A DNA stretch of 64,000 nucleotides, taken from the NCBI GenBank assembly GCA_019090455.1, contig JAHRWA010000074.1:1-64000 (forward strand). Reading direction: 5' to 3'. Source of the DNA: Pseudomonadales bacterium (GTDB lineage: Bacteria; Pseudomonadota; Gammaproteobacteria; Pseudomonadales; DC-out160). Made by a program: the position numbers and the translations under genes. The notes beneath the pieces are model-generated. The model worked only from the letters and a program-made list of their open reading frames with translations. It did no database searches and was not told the origin of the DNA. This document shows positions 13,023-58,392 of this stretch, piece by piece (position 1 is the first letter of the stretch; every line of letters starts with the position of its first letter).

Positions 13023-14984
13023 TTACAAATTAGTACCGTCAAAATAGCTATTGGCATGCGCAAATGCCGCTGGCCCTATTTTTTCCCCTATGAGGCGACC
13101 CGGAAGATCATCAGCAGGCGGGTGAATACCGCCCCAAATCCTCGACAAACTACATTGATCAGAAGCATCGATGTAGGTTGCCCACTCTAAAGTCATATCC
13201 ACACTCGGGCCTTGTTCAAAAACAAGAAACTCATTCTTCTTAACTTCAAAACCACTTTTACCGCCGGGGAAAAATTCGTCCCCCGTCATCTCTCCCATTA
13301 ACAATGCCGCTGCACGAGAGAACGTCGAGTGTCCCGAGATATAACCGGCAAAAGGAGGGGTAACGAAGGTGGGGCGTTGATAAGGCCACCAATTTTCTGC
13401 CAATATCCAATCTACCCCTGCTTGATCGACTTCGGTATCAACAATATAGTCAGGTCCACGCCACGCGAAAATTTTAATTTTTCCCACATTCTCATCTGCG
13501 TCTCCCGCCAAAGAATCCCCAGCCGTCACTAATGCAATATGATTGTCAATTAATGGAATGCCATCAACATGATAAGAAGCTAAGGCGCTATCGGTACTTT
13601 GTCCTGCCGCTGCCATTGCCCTAATTGCTGATACCGGACGAAGATAATCGTAATAGCCCTTAATTCCCCACGCCGCTACCGCCGCATCATGCATTGCACC
13701 ACCCATTGTAAAATAGGTTTTAATGTCCCATTCGAAATTAGATAAGATGTCACCTACGCCTTGCCAGCGTTTACGCAACAAGGGGTGATCACTCACGCTA
13801 TTTAATAGTACAAACCAATGACCCGGAGGCGTTTCTGAATCTGGGCCATCTGCCCAAAACTCAGCAAGAACTCGCCCATAGTCTCCACGAGGTACCATCT
13901 GAGGTTCGTATGCACGTCCCGTTTTTGGATTCACATCATAGCCGCTGGCACTATCACCACCTTCCAGTAAATTGTAAAAGGTATCGTAATCTTCAAAGCT
14001 AGCCGGTATAGGTTGTACGCTACCAATACTCGCGGGGGAAATATCTATCATTACCCCATCGCTTTCATCTAACTGCCCAGACCAAACAGCAACTAAAGCA
14101 AAGTTCCACTTGTATTCATTGTAATCCTTAGTCGCCACTTTTTCGTCTTCTATATAAGGAGGTACGCCGGGATCGTAATAAACGCTATAACTACCTTCGG
14201 CTGTTGAGTAAATCGTTTTGTCCTCATCACGTAATGCAAAAGGGACAACACTACCCCATTCAGGACCGAGAAATTCGGGGGCTCCTGTTATTGGATTTCC
14301 AGCCTGATCTATGAATAAAGTGAGGGCGATGGGCTGCCAGCGATTCCAATCAATAATATCTGGATTACCTGGCAGCTCAGGTTCAATGTTAGGGTTAACG
14401 GGCTCATAAAAAATGTTAGCGTAATCATTCGATTCATTCGCTCCATCTTGTAAACCAAAAGCAAGATAACAGTTCGCAATATAATTCCCTAGCGCAGCAG
14501 CAGAACCCTCAGAATAATCGTCACTTTTATTAGCGATATCATAACCAAGCACATTCATTAGATTTTCTGCCGCTAACGCAATATCTTCTGCACCAGGGGA
14601 ATTTAAAAATCGGTGACGAATAATTCGATAGGCAGCAAAACTAACCGCTTTTTCTTGGAAGGCATTAACATCATTGGGTGTCGGTATAGGATCTGCAGCA
14701 CAATGATAGGTAGCTACTGTTTTGCCGAAAAGAAAGGGCTCCTCTGGCGATCTAACACTGGCCCAAGCGTCATACATAGCCGCTGAAATATGAAATAGAT
14801 TTCTCGCGTGAACGGTGGGTCTCGCGTAATCATTTCGAATGGCGTCGAGTAGCACTTCATTCCACTGCCTTGCCACTGACTGATGGGTATCGTTATCGCT
14901 TAACCATAAACAGCTAACAAGAGTGCTACTCATTAGAACTAAGGATAACGCGGTGAATATCGGTTTTCTTATTGCTGAGTACAT
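13023..14984 (-). CDS. Vanadium-dependent haloperoxidase-like PAP2 lipoprotein
   Basis: A 653-aa secreted PAP2-superfamily protein. An N-terminal lipobox (LVSC, about residue 25) predicts a lipoprotein. The three phosphate/vanadate-binding motifs are present: KGYYDYLRPVSAIR, YISGHSTFSRAAAL, and SRIWGGIHPPADD near the C-terminus with the catalytic His in GIHPP. This set matches vanadium chloroperoxidase-type enzymes and related acid phosphatases; which activity is present is not decidable here. I prefer the ATG at 14984; an in-frame TTG exists at 15002, but neither has a clear ribosome site. A palindromic operator lies 86 nt upstream. Together with DUF302 it may form a regulated envelope unit. 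Confidence 0.85.
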   Translation of the reverse strand: MYSAIRKPIFTALSLVLMSSTLVSCLWLSDNDTHQSVARQWNEVLLDAIRNDYARPTVHARNLFHISAAMYDAWASVRSPEEPFLFGKTVATYHCAADPIPTPNDVNAFQEKAVSFAAYRIIRHRFLNSPGAEDIALAAENLMNVLGYDIANKSDDYSEGSAAALGNYIANCYLAFGLQDGANESNDYANIFYEPVNPNIEPELPGNPDIIDWNRWQPIALTLFIDQAGNPITGAPEFLGPEWGSVVPFALRDEDKTIYSTAEGSYSVYYDPGVPPYIEDEKVATKDYNEYKWNFALVAVWSGQLDESDGVMIDISPASIGSVQPIPASFEDYDTFYNLLEGGDSASGYDVNPKTGRAYEPQMVPRGDYGRVLAEFWADGPDSETPPGHWFVLLNSVSDHPLLRKRWQGVGDILSNFEWDIKTYFTMGGAMHDAAVAAWGIKGYYDYLRPVSAIRAMAAAGQSTDSALASYHVDGIPLIDNHIALVTAGDSLAGDADENVGKIKIFAWRGPDYIVDTEVDQAGVDWILAENWWPYQRPTFVTPPFAGYISGHSTFSRAAALLMGEMTGDEFFPGGKSGFEVKKNEFLVFEQGPSVDMTLEWATYIDASDQCSLSRIWGGIHPPADDLPGRLIGEKIGPAAFAHANSYFDGTNL

Positions 14985-15002
14985 AGGGTTGCTCGCGTCC
15001 AA

Positions 15003-17077: not shown

Positions 17078-18541
17078 CTATGATTCAGGCCATTCCACAG
17101 TTTCAAAGAATTTGTTGGTTAGCGGAATATTCTCATTCATCTGTTTGAAACCCCAACCGTAAGACTTATCGATGCTTTCAGCGCTAGGAACAAGATTGGC
17201 AGGCGCTAAAGTCGGTTTGAATTTAATAATATTATGCGCAAAGGGATGATTAACGGCTACCTGGGTCTGCAAGGCATATTCCACAGGTAGAGTGAGAGCG
17301 TGGTTCATAGTCAACTGTGGATGAAAACAGTCGAAGCCCAGGTAGTAACAATTTCGCGTACCAATTTTGCCATTATGAACCTGATTCCAAGCACTGCGTA
17401 CAGGGACATTATTAATAATGCCGCCATCAACAAGGCACATTAAGTCTTCCCGCATGAAGAGCGCTTCAAGCATCTCCGTCATATGATCGTCATTTCTGGC
17501 AATATCATAATGCAGAATGCCTGGAATGGCTGATGAAAATCCGGCAGCATCCACGGCATTGAAATCAGCGGTGAGACTATCTCCGCCAATAATTATTTCT
17601 TTTGTCACCATGGGATTGATAAACGCCAACATCCTAATTAACTGGGCAGTTATTTTACGCCCTAGCGCCATTTTGGAAGGCATCTTGTCGAGTATTAAAT
17701 GGTGCTCCCTGGCATACTCTTCTGGCGAAAAACCCATCGCACCTCGATTAACACCCGCAACCACGGTCTCGAAGGGTATTTCCAAATCAGACAATAACAT
17801 TGGGCTTCCATCTGGATGGACAAAACGATCCTGAATGGCAGCATGCAGATAAAACCGTAATAAACCCGGTAAGCCGAAACGGGCTTTCAAACTCACGACA
17901 TTAAAAATTTCACCGGGCGATAAAGATTGCGCAAACTTTACGTCTTCGTCGTAATTTCCTATTTTATGTTTCGATCGAAATAATCCAAGGACAGAACCAA
18001 TGGAAGCTCCAAGGAGATAACCCGGAATATAGTTAGCCTGCTCTAGCGCCTCATACGCTCCAATATAAACATAGCCCGAACCACCACCTCCGCCACAAAC
18101 ATTCACCAGTGTCTTAGTGCCAATTTCCCGATTGAGTTCCTCAGCAGAAAAGTCATCTGAGTGATCTTGGAGAATTGCCTGGACCGTGGGTTCAACTTTA
18201 TCTTCCCAAAGAGGAATACTTTGTTGGGCATCAATTAAAACGGCTAACTCGGGTTTACCTTTTGCTAAACTCCTACCCAGTGTATCAATCAAGTAATTTC
18301 TTAAATTGACGAGCGCTAAGTTTTCAACCGTAATATCCGGGCGGTCATTTCTGCCCATGCCCGCTGCACCAGGCTGGAAAGTGGATATTTTTGCGAGATT
18401 GAGGGCGTACCGAATTTTTTGCTCATTGGATTTATCAACACAAGAAGGGTTATTAAAAGCGGCTTCCACAAAGCGCTTTTCCATTTGCTGTAGCTTCAGT
18501 AAATCTTTCGCTGTGTGTCGATCTAAATAATGATGATTCAT
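17078..18541 (-). CDS. Patatin-like phospholipase
   Basis: A 487-aa protein with a patatin domain from about residue 147. The oxyanion loop is the glycine run in VCGGGGGSGYVYIG, the nucleophile serine sits in GASIG (S180), and the partner aspartate in LVDGGIINNVP, so the Ser-Asp dyad is complete. It should be a lipid acyl hydrolase. The 145-residue N-terminal part is helical and unassigned. No signal peptide is present, suggesting a cytosolic or membrane-peripheral enzyme. The ATG at 18541 (MNHHYLDRHTAKDL) is preferred over 18592. It follows the CBS gene by 73 bp on the same strand. Confidence 0.85.
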   Translation of the reverse strand: MNHHYLDRHTAKDLLKLQQMEKRFVEAAFNNPSCVDKSNEQKIRYALNLAKISTFQPGAAGMGRNDRPDITVENLALVNLRNYLIDTLGRSLAKGKPELAVLIDAQQSIPLWEDKVEPTVQAILQDHSDDFSAEELNREIGTKTLVNVCGGGGGSGYVYIGAYEALEQANYIPGYLLGASIGSVLGLFRSKHKIGNYDEDVKFAQSLSPGEIFNVVSLKARFGLPGLLRFYLHAAIQDRFVHPDGSPMLLSDLEIPFETVVAGVNRGAMGFSPEEYAREHHLILDKMPSKMALGRKITAQLIRMLAFINPMVTKEIIIGGDSLTADFNAVDAAGFSSAIPGILHYDIARNDDHMTEMLEALFMREDLMCLVDGGIINNVPVRSAWNQVHNGKIGTRNCYYLGFDCFHPQLTMNHALTLPVEYALQTQVAVNHPFAHNIIKFKPTLAPANLVPSAESIDKSYGWGFKQMNENIPLTNKFFETVEWPES

Positions 18542-18614
18542 TTTATTTTCGTATTTCTTTAGAATGTAAGTAATAGGTAGTGAGGTAGGCATTAGATATT
18601 AAGTATTAGAAAAT

Positions 18615-19013
18615 CTAGCTTTGCATGCCCTGCAAAACCATTTGATCACAACTCAAAACACCGACTACGACTTCATTTTCAATGACGGGCGCATCCCACA
18701 ATCCCAATCGGTCGAACAGTCTCGCACAATACCGAATGTCCATGCAAGGGGGGACACTGACCACGGGCTTAACCATTATTTCATAGAGATTAACTCGACT
18801 CGGCGCTCGATCTTTTGCTAATACTTTCGTTGCTATATCCGACAACCGTACCATTCCATAAACATCATCCGCGTCTCGTCTTTCAACGATGATAATATTT
18901 GCTTGTTGTTGACGAAGAGTCTCTATCGCCGCAGTCACCGTTATCAGGCCGTTCATCTCAACAAATCGCGGCTCCATGACATCTCGTGCGCGAATGATTT
19001 TTGCTTTAGTCAC
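18615..19013 (-). CDS. Stand-alone CBS-pair protein
   Basis: A 132-aa protein made only of a tandem CBS (Bateman) module. The first repeat starts ARDVMEPRFVEMNGLITVTAAIETLRQQQANIIIVERRD, the second NLYEIMVKPVVSVPPCMDIRYCARLFDRLGLWDAPVIENEVVVGVLS. Such modules bind adenosine nucleotides and switch partner proteins. Its start overlaps the stop of the PII-like gene by 4 nt (ATGA), implying translational coupling and a shared task, most likely sensing energy state for the DUF1538 membrane proteins. Confidence 0.88.
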   Translation of the reverse strand: MTKAKIIRARDVMEPRFVEMNGLITVTAAIETLRQQQANIIIVERRDADDVYGMVRLSDIATKVLAKDRAPSRVNLYEIMVKPVVSVPPCMDIRYCARLFDRLGLWDAPVIENEVVVGVLSCDQMVLQGMQS

Positions 19014-19360
19014 AGGGCGTCCTCTAATTTGGTGCTGATTTTGGAGATTTGATGACTCACCCCAACGGCATCCTCGACATCCAACTGAACGGCAATACCA
19101 GTTCCTGGTTTTTCTTCAAATTCTCCGGCCCGCTCTATTTCTTCCAGTATGTGTCGACTAAGATGCTCCTCCACAATCAGTAGCAAAACATCCCTTTGCG
19201 TTTCCAATGTCAAACCCAAGAACGTTCTCGATTTTTTTCGTCCTTCTCCCCTAGCATGATTAATAACGGTCGCGCCCGTTGCGCCCGCGTCTCTAGCCGC
19301 CTTCATTACTGAGTCTGTTTTGTCATCTTCCACAAAAACGACAATCATCTTAAAGTGCAT
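19010..19360 (-). CDS. PII-like signalling protein
   Basis: A 116-aa protein with a PII-like ferredoxin fold: MIVVFVEDDKTDSVMKAARDAGATGATVINHARG, DVLLLIVEEHLSRHILEEIERAG, and KPGTGIAVQLDVEDAVGV (the loop comparable to the PII B/C region). The T-loop (about residues 37-52) is basic and lacks the uridylylated tyrosine of GlnB/GlnK, so control by GlnD is unlikely. GGAG precedes the ATG at 19360. It lies 14 bp after the first DUF1538 gene and overlaps the CBS gene, the gene arrangement of PII-like regulators next to their target transporters. Confidence 0.85.
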   Translation of the reverse strand: MHFKMIVVFVEDDKTDSVMKAARDAGATGATVINHARGEGRKKSRTFLGLTLETQRDVLLLIVEEHLSRHILEEIERAGEFEEKPGTGIAVQLDVEDAVGVSHQISKISTKLEDAL

Positions 19361-19374
19361 GATAGTTTCTCCGC

Positions 19375-20184
19375 CTAATGTTTCGTCTCTCGACGTTTCC
19401 TACTACGAGTTTCTAACTCAAATTTCATATTCGAAAGTTGCGCGTATGCCATCACTGACATGATCGGGAACAAGCTAGCAAATGCAATCAAACCAAACCC
19501 ATCAATCAATGGGCTGCGCCCTGGAACTGTTTCAGCCAATCCCAACCCCAAAGCGGCCACTAACGGCACGGTAACGGTGGAGGTAGTAACACCCCCAGAA
19601 TCATAGGCTAACGGCACCATCAGTTTGGGTGTAAATACAGTTTGAATAACCACAATGATATAACCCACCACAATGTAATATTGAATCGGGTGCCCCACCA
19701 CAATTCGGTAACTTCCCAACGCAATTCCAAACGCAACTCCTAACGCCACTGCAATTCGCAAACCCCATACACCAATCGCCCCGCCTGACACTTCATTCGC
19801 TTTAATCGCCACCGCAATGAGTGAAGGCTCTGCAATTGTAGTAGTGAGCCCAATTAAAAAAGCGAAAGCATAAACCCAACCGTAATCCTTCCAATCAACC
19901 GCAGTTCGTACCACCTCTACTCCCGGCTCAAGCCCCAAGATAAAAGCAGGTGCTGTTAATTGTGCCGCCATCATTCGCCCAATAGGAAACAAACACTTTT
20001 CCAGCCCCAATAAAAAAAGTGAAAGCCCAACCAACACATAAACAAAACCAATTAATACTGTCCGAATTTGCGGTATCGGTTTTCGAATAACAGCAAATTG
20101 AAAGCCAAAAATAATCGCCGCAATGGGGATCACATCAGTAATGGTACTCTTGATGGTATTGATCAATTCAAAAAGCAAGTCCAT
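19375..20184 (-). CDS. DUF1538 membrane protein, subunit A
   Basis: A 269-aa inner-membrane protein with about seven hydrophobic segments. DUF1538 signatures: [93 protein letters not shown]. The TTxAEP and [10 protein letters not shown] elements carry conserved polar residues inside membrane segments, as in ion-coupled carriers. It is paralogous to the adjacent gene and ends in a basic tail (ETRSRKRRETKH). Function is unknown; with the PII-like and CBS genes it is probably half of a regulated transporter. Confidence 0.85.
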   Translation of the reverse strand: MDLLFELINTIKSTITDVIPIAAIIFGFQFAVIRKPIPQIRTVLIGFVYVLVGLSLFLLGLEKCLFPIGRMMAAQLTAPAFILGLEPGVEVVRTAVDWKDYGWVYAFAFLIGLTTTIAEPSLIAVAIKANEVSGGAIGVWGLRIAVALGVAFGIALGSYRIVVGHPIQYYIVVGYIIVVIQTVFTPKLMVPLAYDSGGVTTSTVTVPLVAALGLGLAETVPGRSPLIDGFGLIAFASLFPIMSVMAYAQLSNMKFELETRSRKRRETKH

Positions 20185-20215
20185 CGCTACGTCATAACCT
20201 TTATCTCATGAAGCC

Positions 20216-20953
20216 CTAATTCAAAAACATACCGTACGCCATAACAAAAATGATGGGTGTTAACGAGGCGAATGCAATTAATCCAAAACCATCAATCATC
20301 GGATTACGTCCACGGATGGAGGAAGCTAACCCCACTCCTAGTGCCGTCACTAGCGGCACCGTTATCGTCGATGTTGTGACACCACCCGAATCATAAGCTA
20401 TGCCGACAATCTCAGGCGGCGCAAAAAATGTCATGATAACCACCATGACATAGCCACCTATAATCAAATAATGTACCGGCCAACCTTTTAATATTCGCAA
20501 CACACCAATCACTATGGCTAAGCCCACCGCAAAGGCAACCGTCAACCTCAAGCCATTGGCATAATCTAATTTAGCGTCTTCCGTCGATGCAATGATATTA
20601 CCATCGGCAGCCACTGAAGCCGCTTCGTAGGCCACAGCAATCAATGCGGGTTCTGCAACGGTAGTACCAAACCCCAATGCAAAAGCAAATATCAACAACC
20701 ACTTAACGCTCCCCTTCTTTGCAAAAGCCCGCGCCATCGACTCCCCTATAGGAAATAGGCCTTGCTCCAAACCATGGATAAATAGCGTTAAACCCAAGAC
20801 AATAAATACAACGCCTTGCAGAAGCTCACCCACATTCGGTAGATGCTGCTGCAACACAATATACTGAAAAAAAAGTACCACTAACAATATCGGCGTTAAA
20901 TCTCGAAGACTTCCCAGCATCGATCTCAATAACATAACCACGGTATTGTTCAA
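20216..20953 (-). CDS. DUF1538 membrane protein, subunit B
   Basis: A 245-aa inner-membrane paralogue of subunit A. It carries the same blocks: [95 protein letters not shown]. It has a longer loop ([16 protein letters not shown]) and no basic tail. The pair, 31 bp apart, suggests a heteromer. It is the first gene after hemY (66 bp, no terminator seen), so read-through from the hem operon is possible. Confidence 0.85.
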
Positions 20954-55886: not shown

Positions 55887-57212
55887 TTACTTATTCGTGA
55901 ATTCTGGATAAGCTTCCATACCACATTCTGAAAGATCTGCACCGTCGTATTCTTCTTCTTCACTAATACGGATACCGACGACTTTCTTCAACACAAACCA
56001 GACAACGAAACTGGCACCAAATACCCAAGTGAAAATGGTAATTGCACCCACTATCTGCCCCCATAATGTCGCTGATTCATTGGTTAACGGTACCAGTAAC
56101 AAACCTAACAAACCGCAAACACCGTGTACCGATATGGCGCCAACAGGATCATCTATTCGCAGTTTATCCATAGCCAGTATTGAGAATACGACTAAAACTC
56201 CACCGGCCATTCCAAACAAGGTCGCTTGTAATGCTGTGGGGGTTGACGGCTCCGCTGTGATTGCTACTAAACCCGCTAACGCGCCATTCAGAAGCATGGT
56301 TAAATCCGCCTTGCCAAACATTAATCGCGCAACAATCAAAGCGGCGATTCCACCACCGGCAGCCGCCGCATTCGTATTTAAAAATACCATAGCGACGGAA
56401 TTAGCACTTGCGACATCACCCAACTTAAGAACAGATCCACCGTTGAATCCAAACCACCCCATCCAAAGGATAAAAGTACCTAAAGTTGCTAAAGGTAAAT
56501 TCGCACCGGGAAAAGCATTAACATCGCCATTAGCTTCGTATTTGCCCTTTCTAGCGCCGAGTAAGATCACACCCGCTAATGCAGCAGAGGCACCGGCCAT
56601 ATGAACAATCCCTGAACCCGCGAAATCAGAAAAGCCAAACCCAGACACTTCACCACAACTCTCAGAACTAATCGCATCACCCAGCGCATATAGACCGAAA
56701 ACACCACATTCGCCCCAGGAACCTTCAACACCACCACCCCAGGTCCAGCTGCCTTCCAATGGATAAATAATACCTGTCATCACCGCCGCAAATACAAGAA
56801 ATGCCCATAACTTCATTCTTTCTGCTACAGCGCCAGAGACAATGGACATAGCCGTCGCCACAAAAACAACCTGAAAGAAAAAGTCCGATGCACCAGAATA
56901 AACAGAACCACCATCAAAACCATTCTCTTTAGACGCTGCAAGAGCATCCTCCACCAAGGTATCTCCGCCTTCTATACCCGTTAGCATAAAACTTCCACCG
57001 TACATAACAGCGTACCCACAGACCAAATACATAATACAAGCCACTGCGAACAAGGCGACGTTTTTGGTCAGTATTTCAGTTGTATTTTTGGAACGCACTA
57101 AGCCTGCTTCTAACATAGCAAATCCAGCCGCCATCCACATGACTAACGCACCACACATCAAAAAATAGAATGTGTCCATAGCATACTGCAGTTGAAAAAT
57201 TTGATCTTGCAC
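55887..57212 (-). CDS. amtB: Ammonium transporter AmtB
   Basis: A 441-aa inner-membrane channel with 11 predicted helices. ALVMWMAAGFAMLEAGLVRSKNT is the opening helix pair. The twin pore histidines are in GSGIVHMAGASAALAG and GAISVHGVCGLLG; LGTFILWMGWFGFNGGS is the family signature. A Cys/Gly-rich loop (GECGVFGLYALGDAISSESCGEVSG) in the periplasm is an insertion that may be disulfide-linked. Downstream of glnK with a 181-bp gap, the usual glnK-amtB operon. Confidence 0.95.
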   Translation of the reverse strand: MQDQIFQLQYAMDTFYFLMCGALVMWMAAGFAMLEAGLVRSKNTTEILTKNVALFAVACIMYLVCGYAVMYGGSFMLTGIEGGDTLVEDALAASKENGFDGGSVYSGASDFFFQVVFVATAMSIVSGAVAERMKLWAFLVFAAVMTGIIYPLEGSWTWGGGVEGSWGECGVFGLYALGDAISSESCGEVSGFGFSDFAGSGIVHMAGASAALAGVILLGARKGKYEANGDVNAFPGANLPLATLGTFILWMGWFGFNGGSVLKLGDVASANSVAMVFLNTNAAAAGGGIAALIVARLMFGKADLTMLLNGALAGLVAITAEPSTPTALQATLFGMAGGVLVVFSILAMDKLRIDDPVGAISVHGVCGLLGLLLVPLTNESATLWGQIVGAITIFTWVFGASFVVWFVLKKVVGIRISEEEEYDGADLSECGMEAYPEFTNK

Positions 57213-57393
57213 GATGTTTTCTCCACATTACAACCGACGAGAAACTGTAGAATCCTCGTTAGCATTTTTTATTAATTCTTAAGTTAATCTCTACAGGATT
57301 TCAGGTCTATTAGACAGACTCTAAAAAATCTGCCTCTCATATTTTAATGGCCTACATAGCTTTAAGGGCTACAATAGCTTTAAATACGACCAA

Positions 57394-58392
<999 letters not shown>

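Follow-up and report, generated by a model that had tools for sequence, protein, structure and literature searches.

The window, by which we mean the entire 64-kb stretch of DNA that was analyzed, contains a minus-strand operon that probably encodes an UmpAB-type monovalent cation/proton antiporter together with its own dedicated PII-like regulator, which we infer to be a gate of that transporter. At the level of sequence comparison, the family assignment of the transporter, the close linkage of PII-like and DUF1538 genes in many bacteria, and the covalent fusion of the two in some are established. The operon consists of genes for two DUF1538 membrane subunits, a PII-like protein, and a protein with two CBS domains (Table 1). 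The umpA and umpB genes are separated by 31 nt and umpB and the PII gene by 14 nt, and the PII gene overlaps the CBS gene by 4 nt, so that the four tightly packed minus-strand genes described in the initial annotation stand as described, in their positions, gaps and overlap. All four products score above the relevant Pfam cut-offs (22.6 bits for DUF1538, 25 bits for P-II, and 24 bits for CBS), the CBS protein reaching 33.2 bits over two stretches. Because the same gene order recurs across many genomes, the four open reading frames do not represent a chance set. The pair encoded here is the only DUF1538 pair in the host genome, which contains two P-II matches, namely the PII-like protein of the operon and a canonical GlnK. 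Between window positions 18000 and 22400 a search for known RNA elements found none up to an E-value of 1. Scans for promoter-like sites (5 versus 10.0 in shuffled sequences) and terminator-like sites (6 versus 4.3) were uninformative. We note that the stop codon of the CBS gene is followed 22 nt later by the start of a gene for a patatin-like phospholipase (window 17078–18592), likewise on the minus strand, which might share a transcript with the operon. The product of a further minus-strand gene, at 13023–15002, is 659 residues long and matches vanadium-chloroperoxidase and, weakly, PAP2 in Pfam.

Table 1 Coordinates of the genes and motifs of the putative antiporter operon in the window
Feature	Position	Strand	Details
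UmpA-like DUF1538 membrane subunit	20216..20953	-	245 aa, TTG start; Pfam DUF1538 237.3 bits
UmpB-like DUF1538 membrane subunit	19375..20184	-	269 aa; Pfam DUF1538 220.9 bits
PII-like regulator, proposed UmpAB gate	19010..19360	-	116 aa; Pfam P-II 44.1 bits; proposed role from adjacency and fusion surveys
Two-CBS-domain protein, probable accessory sensor	18615..19013	-	132 aa, GTG start; Pfam CBS, two stretches
TTVAEP motif of UmpA	20648..20665	-	invariant Glu101 at helix break; helices 83-99 and 102-117 in model
[10 protein letters not shown] motif of UmpA	20366..20395	-	invariant Asp188 just before helix break; helices 180-192 and 198-211 in model
TTIAEP motif of UmpB	19825..19842	-	from sequence
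[10 protein letters not shown] motif of UmpB	19576..19605	-	from sequence

The two membrane subunits are indeed paralogs, as had been proposed (44% identity, both matching Pfam DUF1538), and the TTxAEP and [10 protein letters not shown] motifs that had been noted in them are present in both. The NCBIfam models that match the pair best are those for the UmpA and UmpB antiporter subunits, and the genes form an adjacent paralogous pair, one UmpA-like and then one UmpB-like, which is the UmpAB arrangement. Since the scores fall under the equivalog cut-offs (382.2 bits against 490 for UmpA and 340.5 bits against 500 for UmpB), we file the pair as a relative of UmpAB and not as UmpAB. In a genome from the family of Halomonas gemina (locus L247), UmpB passes the NCBIfam cut-off with 505.7 bits and UmpA scores 428.7 bits; the window subunits are 64% (UmpA) and 56% (UmpB) identical to these two proteins. 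Glu101 and Asp188 (UmpA numbering) are invariant in an alignment of 61 rows. According to the available part of a 2017 report, UmpA and UmpB, which contain DUF1538, form a heterodimeric Na+(Li+,K+)/H+ antiporter in Halomonas zhaodongensis; antiport was detected in everted vesicles from E. coli expressing one Halomonas pair, and growth in salt required that both umpA and umpB be expressed (PMC5484666). By analogy with this homolog, the activity of the window pair is likely to be monovalent cation antiport. The initial annotation had left the substrate unspecified and had suggested an ion or bicarbonate-like transporter; the first statement gives way to the characterized antiporter in the same family, and the bicarbonate-carrier reading was rejected on the grounds that Pfam searches up to an E-value of 1 return no SbtA-type family.

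One alternative, which we consider improbable, is that DUF1538 pairs vary in substrate. The window system might then transport K+, some other cation, or an anion (bicarbonate, for example), and the PII-like protein would report on carbon or nitrogen status, by analogy with the SbtA-SbtB and AmtB-GlnK systems. Several observations would suit such a diversity of substrates: DUF1538 is an ancient family with more than one type, and a distant type is accompanied by divergent P-II-like genes; SbtB and CPII are among the nearest folds of the P-II domain; and a sister PII-like gene adjoins a SulP-type transporter at two loci (L252 and L253). The identity of the window pair to the Halomonas-family subunits nevertheless argues against a different substrate, as does the fact that neither an SbtA nor an ammonium-transporter family is found for the pair in Pfam up to an E-value of 1. 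UmpAB homologs are also described from the salt-water lineages of cable bacteria in the available parts of two further papers (PMC10030654, PMC12093952), which again speaks against a different substrate.

The evidence that the PII-like protein is dedicated to this antiporter comes from the distribution and placement of the two gene families. The class-wide sample comprised 274 evenly drawn genomes. DUF1538 occurs in 90 of them and the PII-like protein (profile A1, E-value 1e-5) in 88; both are present in 86 genomes, DUF1538 only in 4, the PII-like protein only in 2, and neither in 182 (Fisher p = 1.7e-63). The survey of co-occurrence that had been suggested from the sequence was therefore strongly positive. 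Profile A1 was built from the window PII-like protein and 27 DUF1538-adjacent PII proteins from the sampled genomes, so the hits in those source genomes were built in; the scarcity of hits among the remaining genomes was not. All four of the genomes with DUF1538 only contain divergent P-II-like genes directly downstream (in G144 the P-II-like neighbor scores under the Pfam cut-off), and in the two genomes with PII only, the PII gene either lies at a contig edge (L033) or has a remnant of UmpB, 28 residues in length, upstream (L034). Among the matches listed (150 rows), a PII gene is found on the same strand within 1.5 kb of DUF1538 in 74 of 80 genomes, the median distance from the end of the DUF1538 domain to PII in those 74 being 65.5 nt. 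PII lies between two DUF1538 genes in G079 and directly after a further DUF1538 gene in G206. Contig breaks fall inside umpB in G033 and G038, the other contig carrying an umpB fragment with PII after it, and both DUF1538 and PII are at contig ends in G196. In G032 (L262 and L263), umpB ends about 200 nt from the end of its contig and the PII and CBS genes are on a different contig, where the 1.5 kb before PII holds no DUF1538. Distances between DUF1538 proteins and between PII proteins are correlated over the 74 loci (r = 0.67, with a maximum of 0.10 in 500 permutations), a value that takes no account of kinship and that we do not count as evidence.

The linkage extends beyond the class. A scan of named species, restricted to the best 80 loci for a fused query and thus not a random draw, placed PII within 600 nt downstream of the transporter gene in 65 loci, upstream in 1 (with the CBS gene in between), and fused to it in 10; in the remaining 4, the contig ends within 81 nt of the transporter gene. 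The lineages among these best 80 loci include Campylobacterales, Gammaproteobacteria, Rhodospirillaceae, Desulfobacterales, Arthrobacter, Bacteroidetes, Scalindua, and Nitrospinaceae. Of 246 genomes drawn from the phylum of Arthrobacter sp. H20, 17 contain DUF1538, and PII adjoins it in all 17; CBS was seen at 1 of these 17 loci, some of whose flanks are short. In the phylum to which the window belongs, 105 of 249 drawn genomes contain DUF1538, and PII flanks the transporter genes in 27 of 28 new loci chosen among the best matches. The exception (L209, also read as L248, in genome G635) is an UmpA-UmpB pair with no PII in the 3 kb downstream and no CBS nearby, and it is the one clear exception that we found. 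DUF1538 is present in none of 14 well-known control genomes, E. coli among them.

In some bacteria the PII domain is part of the transporter itself. Ten of the best 80 named loci (L062, L064–L066, and L068–L073) encode DUF1538-DUF1538-P-II fusions, all in Campylobacterota; the proteins come from Sulfurimonas, Arcobacter, Poseidonibacter, and their relatives (L071 is from Poseidonibacter ostreae). Pfam recognizes P-II in the C-terminus of each of the four fused proteins tested (1.9e-6, 1.7e-6, 1.5e-5, and 1.4e-9). Two other long proteins (L105 and L117) were considered as fusions and dropped after Pfam found no P-II in them. Together with the linkage, the natural fusions bear out the earlier suggestion of a transporter with a dedicated PII-like protein. 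They also speak against the idea, which we regard as very unlikely, that the genes are inherited together without any contact between their products, the PII-like and CBS proteins answering the same stress and acting elsewhere, for example in transcription or metabolism. Such an arrangement would be in keeping with the CBS gene not always being present, and the contact between PII and transporter is itself a prediction; set against this are the ten fusions, which put the P-II domain on the transporter, and the glnK-amtB genes of the window, in which a PII gene stands beside that of its target transporter.

Several variant arrangements were found. A distant type of DUF1538 protein of about 590 residues is followed by two divergent P-II-like genes (L036, L037, L038, L041, L134, and L249) or by one recognized P-II-like gene and then a small gene without a Pfam match (L039 and L040); where tested, the second P-II-like gene of the divergent pairs reaches 21.6 and 20.2 of the 25 bits required by Pfam. 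Proteins of 384–392 residues that adjoin DUF1538 at L136:2226-3380 and L139:1974-3152 contain two, perhaps three, P-II domains. Our own profile marks three P-II stretches in both of these proteins, the third of them weak. Pfam marks two in L139 and a single one in L136, which at 20.1 bits falls short of the required 25; each protein is possibly a single-chain PII trimer. At L036:6909-9368 and L038:476-2932, a gene for a Na+/H+ exchanger with a cyclic-nucleotide-binding domain (Pfam, for the L036 copy) adjoins the 590-residue DUF1538 gene, and at L044:5033-7415 (plus strand) an orphan sister PII-like gene is separated by 58 nt from a downstream gene for a Na+/H+ exchanger with TrkA domains, an arrangement that favors our reading of the operon. 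A further clade of PII-like genes, with the T-loop sequence GIFGLEIL, occurs near a SulP-type transporter gene and adjoining a DUF1538 cassette (L252:6151-8887 and L253:1264-4027); a gene that, judged from its sequence, resembles those for universal-stress proteins is also nearby.

The published clone bears on whether PII is a gate or a required part of the transporter. As far as the available part of the paper describes it, the insert contained a truncated citrate transporter gene, a gene for a 402-residue MFS permease, and then umpA and umpB, with no further open reading frame (PMC5484666), and the available main text of PMC5484666 nowhere mentions P-II, PII, or CBS. The window operon shares with it two adjacent paralogous DUF1538 subunits and differs from it in continuing into PII and CBS, whereas that insert, as described, stopped after umpB. 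Natural loci in the family of Halomonas gemina resemble the clone closely: in L247, a gene for a 402-residue MFS protein is followed by umpA, an overlapping umpB, and then PII and CBS, and in L246, the upstream gene encodes a 464-residue protein that weakly matches a citrate transporter (26.1 of 31.9 bits), and PII, with no CBS gene, lies downstream. In this family PII adjoins all four of the split pairs that we read, with CBS present as well in three. Judged from these loci of relatives, PII very probably comes next in the natural locus of the published clone as well, and the antiport reported was probably that of UmpAB in the absence of PII and CBS. Because antiport was seen without PII in E. 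coli, a bacterium of the DUF1538-free kind, PII appears dispensable for activity, and because the clone worked without it, PII is most likely a brake. This argument about the direction of control comes from one clone, in a host with its own GlnB and GlnK.

It follows that PII is likely to be a gate and not a required part. The converse reading strikes us as doubtful: in it the transporter would need the PII-like protein as a structural or activating subunit, not as an inhibitory gate, and the DUF1538 pair alone would be only residually active. Near-constant linkage, including covalent fusion, would nonetheless suit a core subunit equally well. As described in the available part of PMC5484666, umpAB alone conferred salt tolerance and antiport on E. 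coli, a species that is among the 14 controls in which DUF1538 is absent, and the exceptional cassette (L248) has no PII at all.

The PII-like protein differs from the canonical members of its superfamily. It contains no tyrosine anywhere along its length, which confirms the initial annotation that it lacks the tyrosine modified by GlnD. Alignment with the GlnK of the same window reveals a five-column gap in the T-loop and indicates that the ATP-phosphate positions of canonical PII (which we take to be K90, R101, and R103) are not kept, although the core glycines are. It thus has neither the T-loop tyrosine nor the ATP-phosphate residues by which canonical GlnB and GlnK are recognized. The protein has no cysteine, so the C-terminal CGPxGC motif of SbtB is missing, as is an SbtA partner. 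Since the ATP-phosphate residues are lost, the ligand may not be ATP; our best guess for the signal is an adenine nucleotide. The window also offers a built-in comparison, a canonical glnK (112 aa, 57394–57732, with the T-loop tyrosine present) together with amtB, at 55887–57732 on the minus strand. As in AmtB-GlnK, the PII gene of the operon adjoins that of its presumed target, but the transporter belongs to another family and the PII-like protein has a shorter T-loop without the modified tyrosine. In the SbtA-SbtB system, as presented in the available part of PMC8352866, the T-loop inserts into the transporter and the C-terminal CGPxGC motif is conserved in some SbtB proteins. Both that system and ours have a PII-like gene adjoining a Na+-linked transporter, and their P-II folds are similar; the window transporter, however, is of another family, its PII-like protein has no CGPxGC loop, and the CBS gene and the covalent fusions are found on the DUF1538 side.

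The CBS protein looks to be accessory. A CBS gene is present within 1.5 kb in 63 of the 80 named loci (best 80 matches) and within 1.5 kb of none of the 10 fused DUF1538-PII genes. Its nearest solved sequence is that of CBS-CP12 (5nmu, E-value 5.6e-19), but compared with the CBS-CP12 proteins of cyanobacteria it is shorter (132 versus 208 residues), has nothing beyond the CBS pair, and has a different genomic partner. Two glycines and one aspartate of the CBS motif are found in at least 93% of 63 homologs, and the window copy departs from the motif at the aspartate of the second repeat.

Predicted structures provided a further view of the transporter. In the model of the window UmpA (pLDDT 94.9, pTM 0.86), the invariant residues Glu101 and Asp188 each coincide with or adjoin a break between helices. 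Comparison of this model with solved structures gave nothing significant (best Foldseek E-value 0.63), which does not show that the fold is new; the best structural Z-score was 5.7 over 68 residues, to a receptor, and fragments of MgtE, aligned over roughly 98 residues, reached a Z-score near 5, a value no different from the background of helical models. A DUF1538-DUF1538-PII fusion (L073) was modeled with pLDDT 84.6 and pTM 0.75 using an alignment (A4) in which nine rows, the query included, contain P-II. An alternative alignment (A5), in which rows of separate PII proteins were joined to the fused proteins, split the PII rows wrongly and was dropped. The P-II fold is seen in this fused homolog, as distinct from the window protein itself, with a best Foldseek E-value of 1.6e-3. 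Its modeled P-II domain matches SbtB (6mmo) with a Z-score of 11.8 and an rmsd of 1.9 over 83 residues, and SbtB, CPII, and classical PII are nearly tied, with Z-scores of 10.6–11.8 among the matches listed.

Taken together, these observations suggest a model in which the PII-like protein, presumably trimeric as PII proteins generally are, would bind the cytoplasmic face of the UmpAB complex, and its short T-loop (the KTFFGL segment) would open or close the transporter. Gating would follow the binding of a small molecule, most likely an adenine nucleotide, with the PII-like protein acting most likely as a brake and the CBS protein serving as an accessory sensor that may tune PII or the antiporter. 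The outcome would be sodium and pH homeostasis that is switched by the energy state of the cell.

PII gating is already familiar from ammonium and bicarbonate transporters; what would be new here is the DUF1538 transporter family as a partner in it. Among the open-license papers listed in literature searches, none joins DUF1538 to PII, which is not proof of novelty. In our judgment there is an even chance that PII-gated transporters include a third, widespread class, the DUF1538 transporters, which would also be the first cation/proton antiporters among them. In this class PII would be a separate trimer, a pair of tandem divergent genes, a single protein with multiple (two or three) P-II domains, or a covalent C-terminal domain, and would couple sodium and pH homeostasis to a nucleotide signal through a membrane fold that has no solved structure yet. 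The natural fusions make the complex easy to test, and the DUF1538 model, with no significant solved match, is a good structural target. Our findings suggest a regulator for a transporter whose published clone seems to end just before the regulator gene and, if a PII partner for this widespread cation/proton antiporter is real, it would bring sodium and pH homeostasis under PII control.
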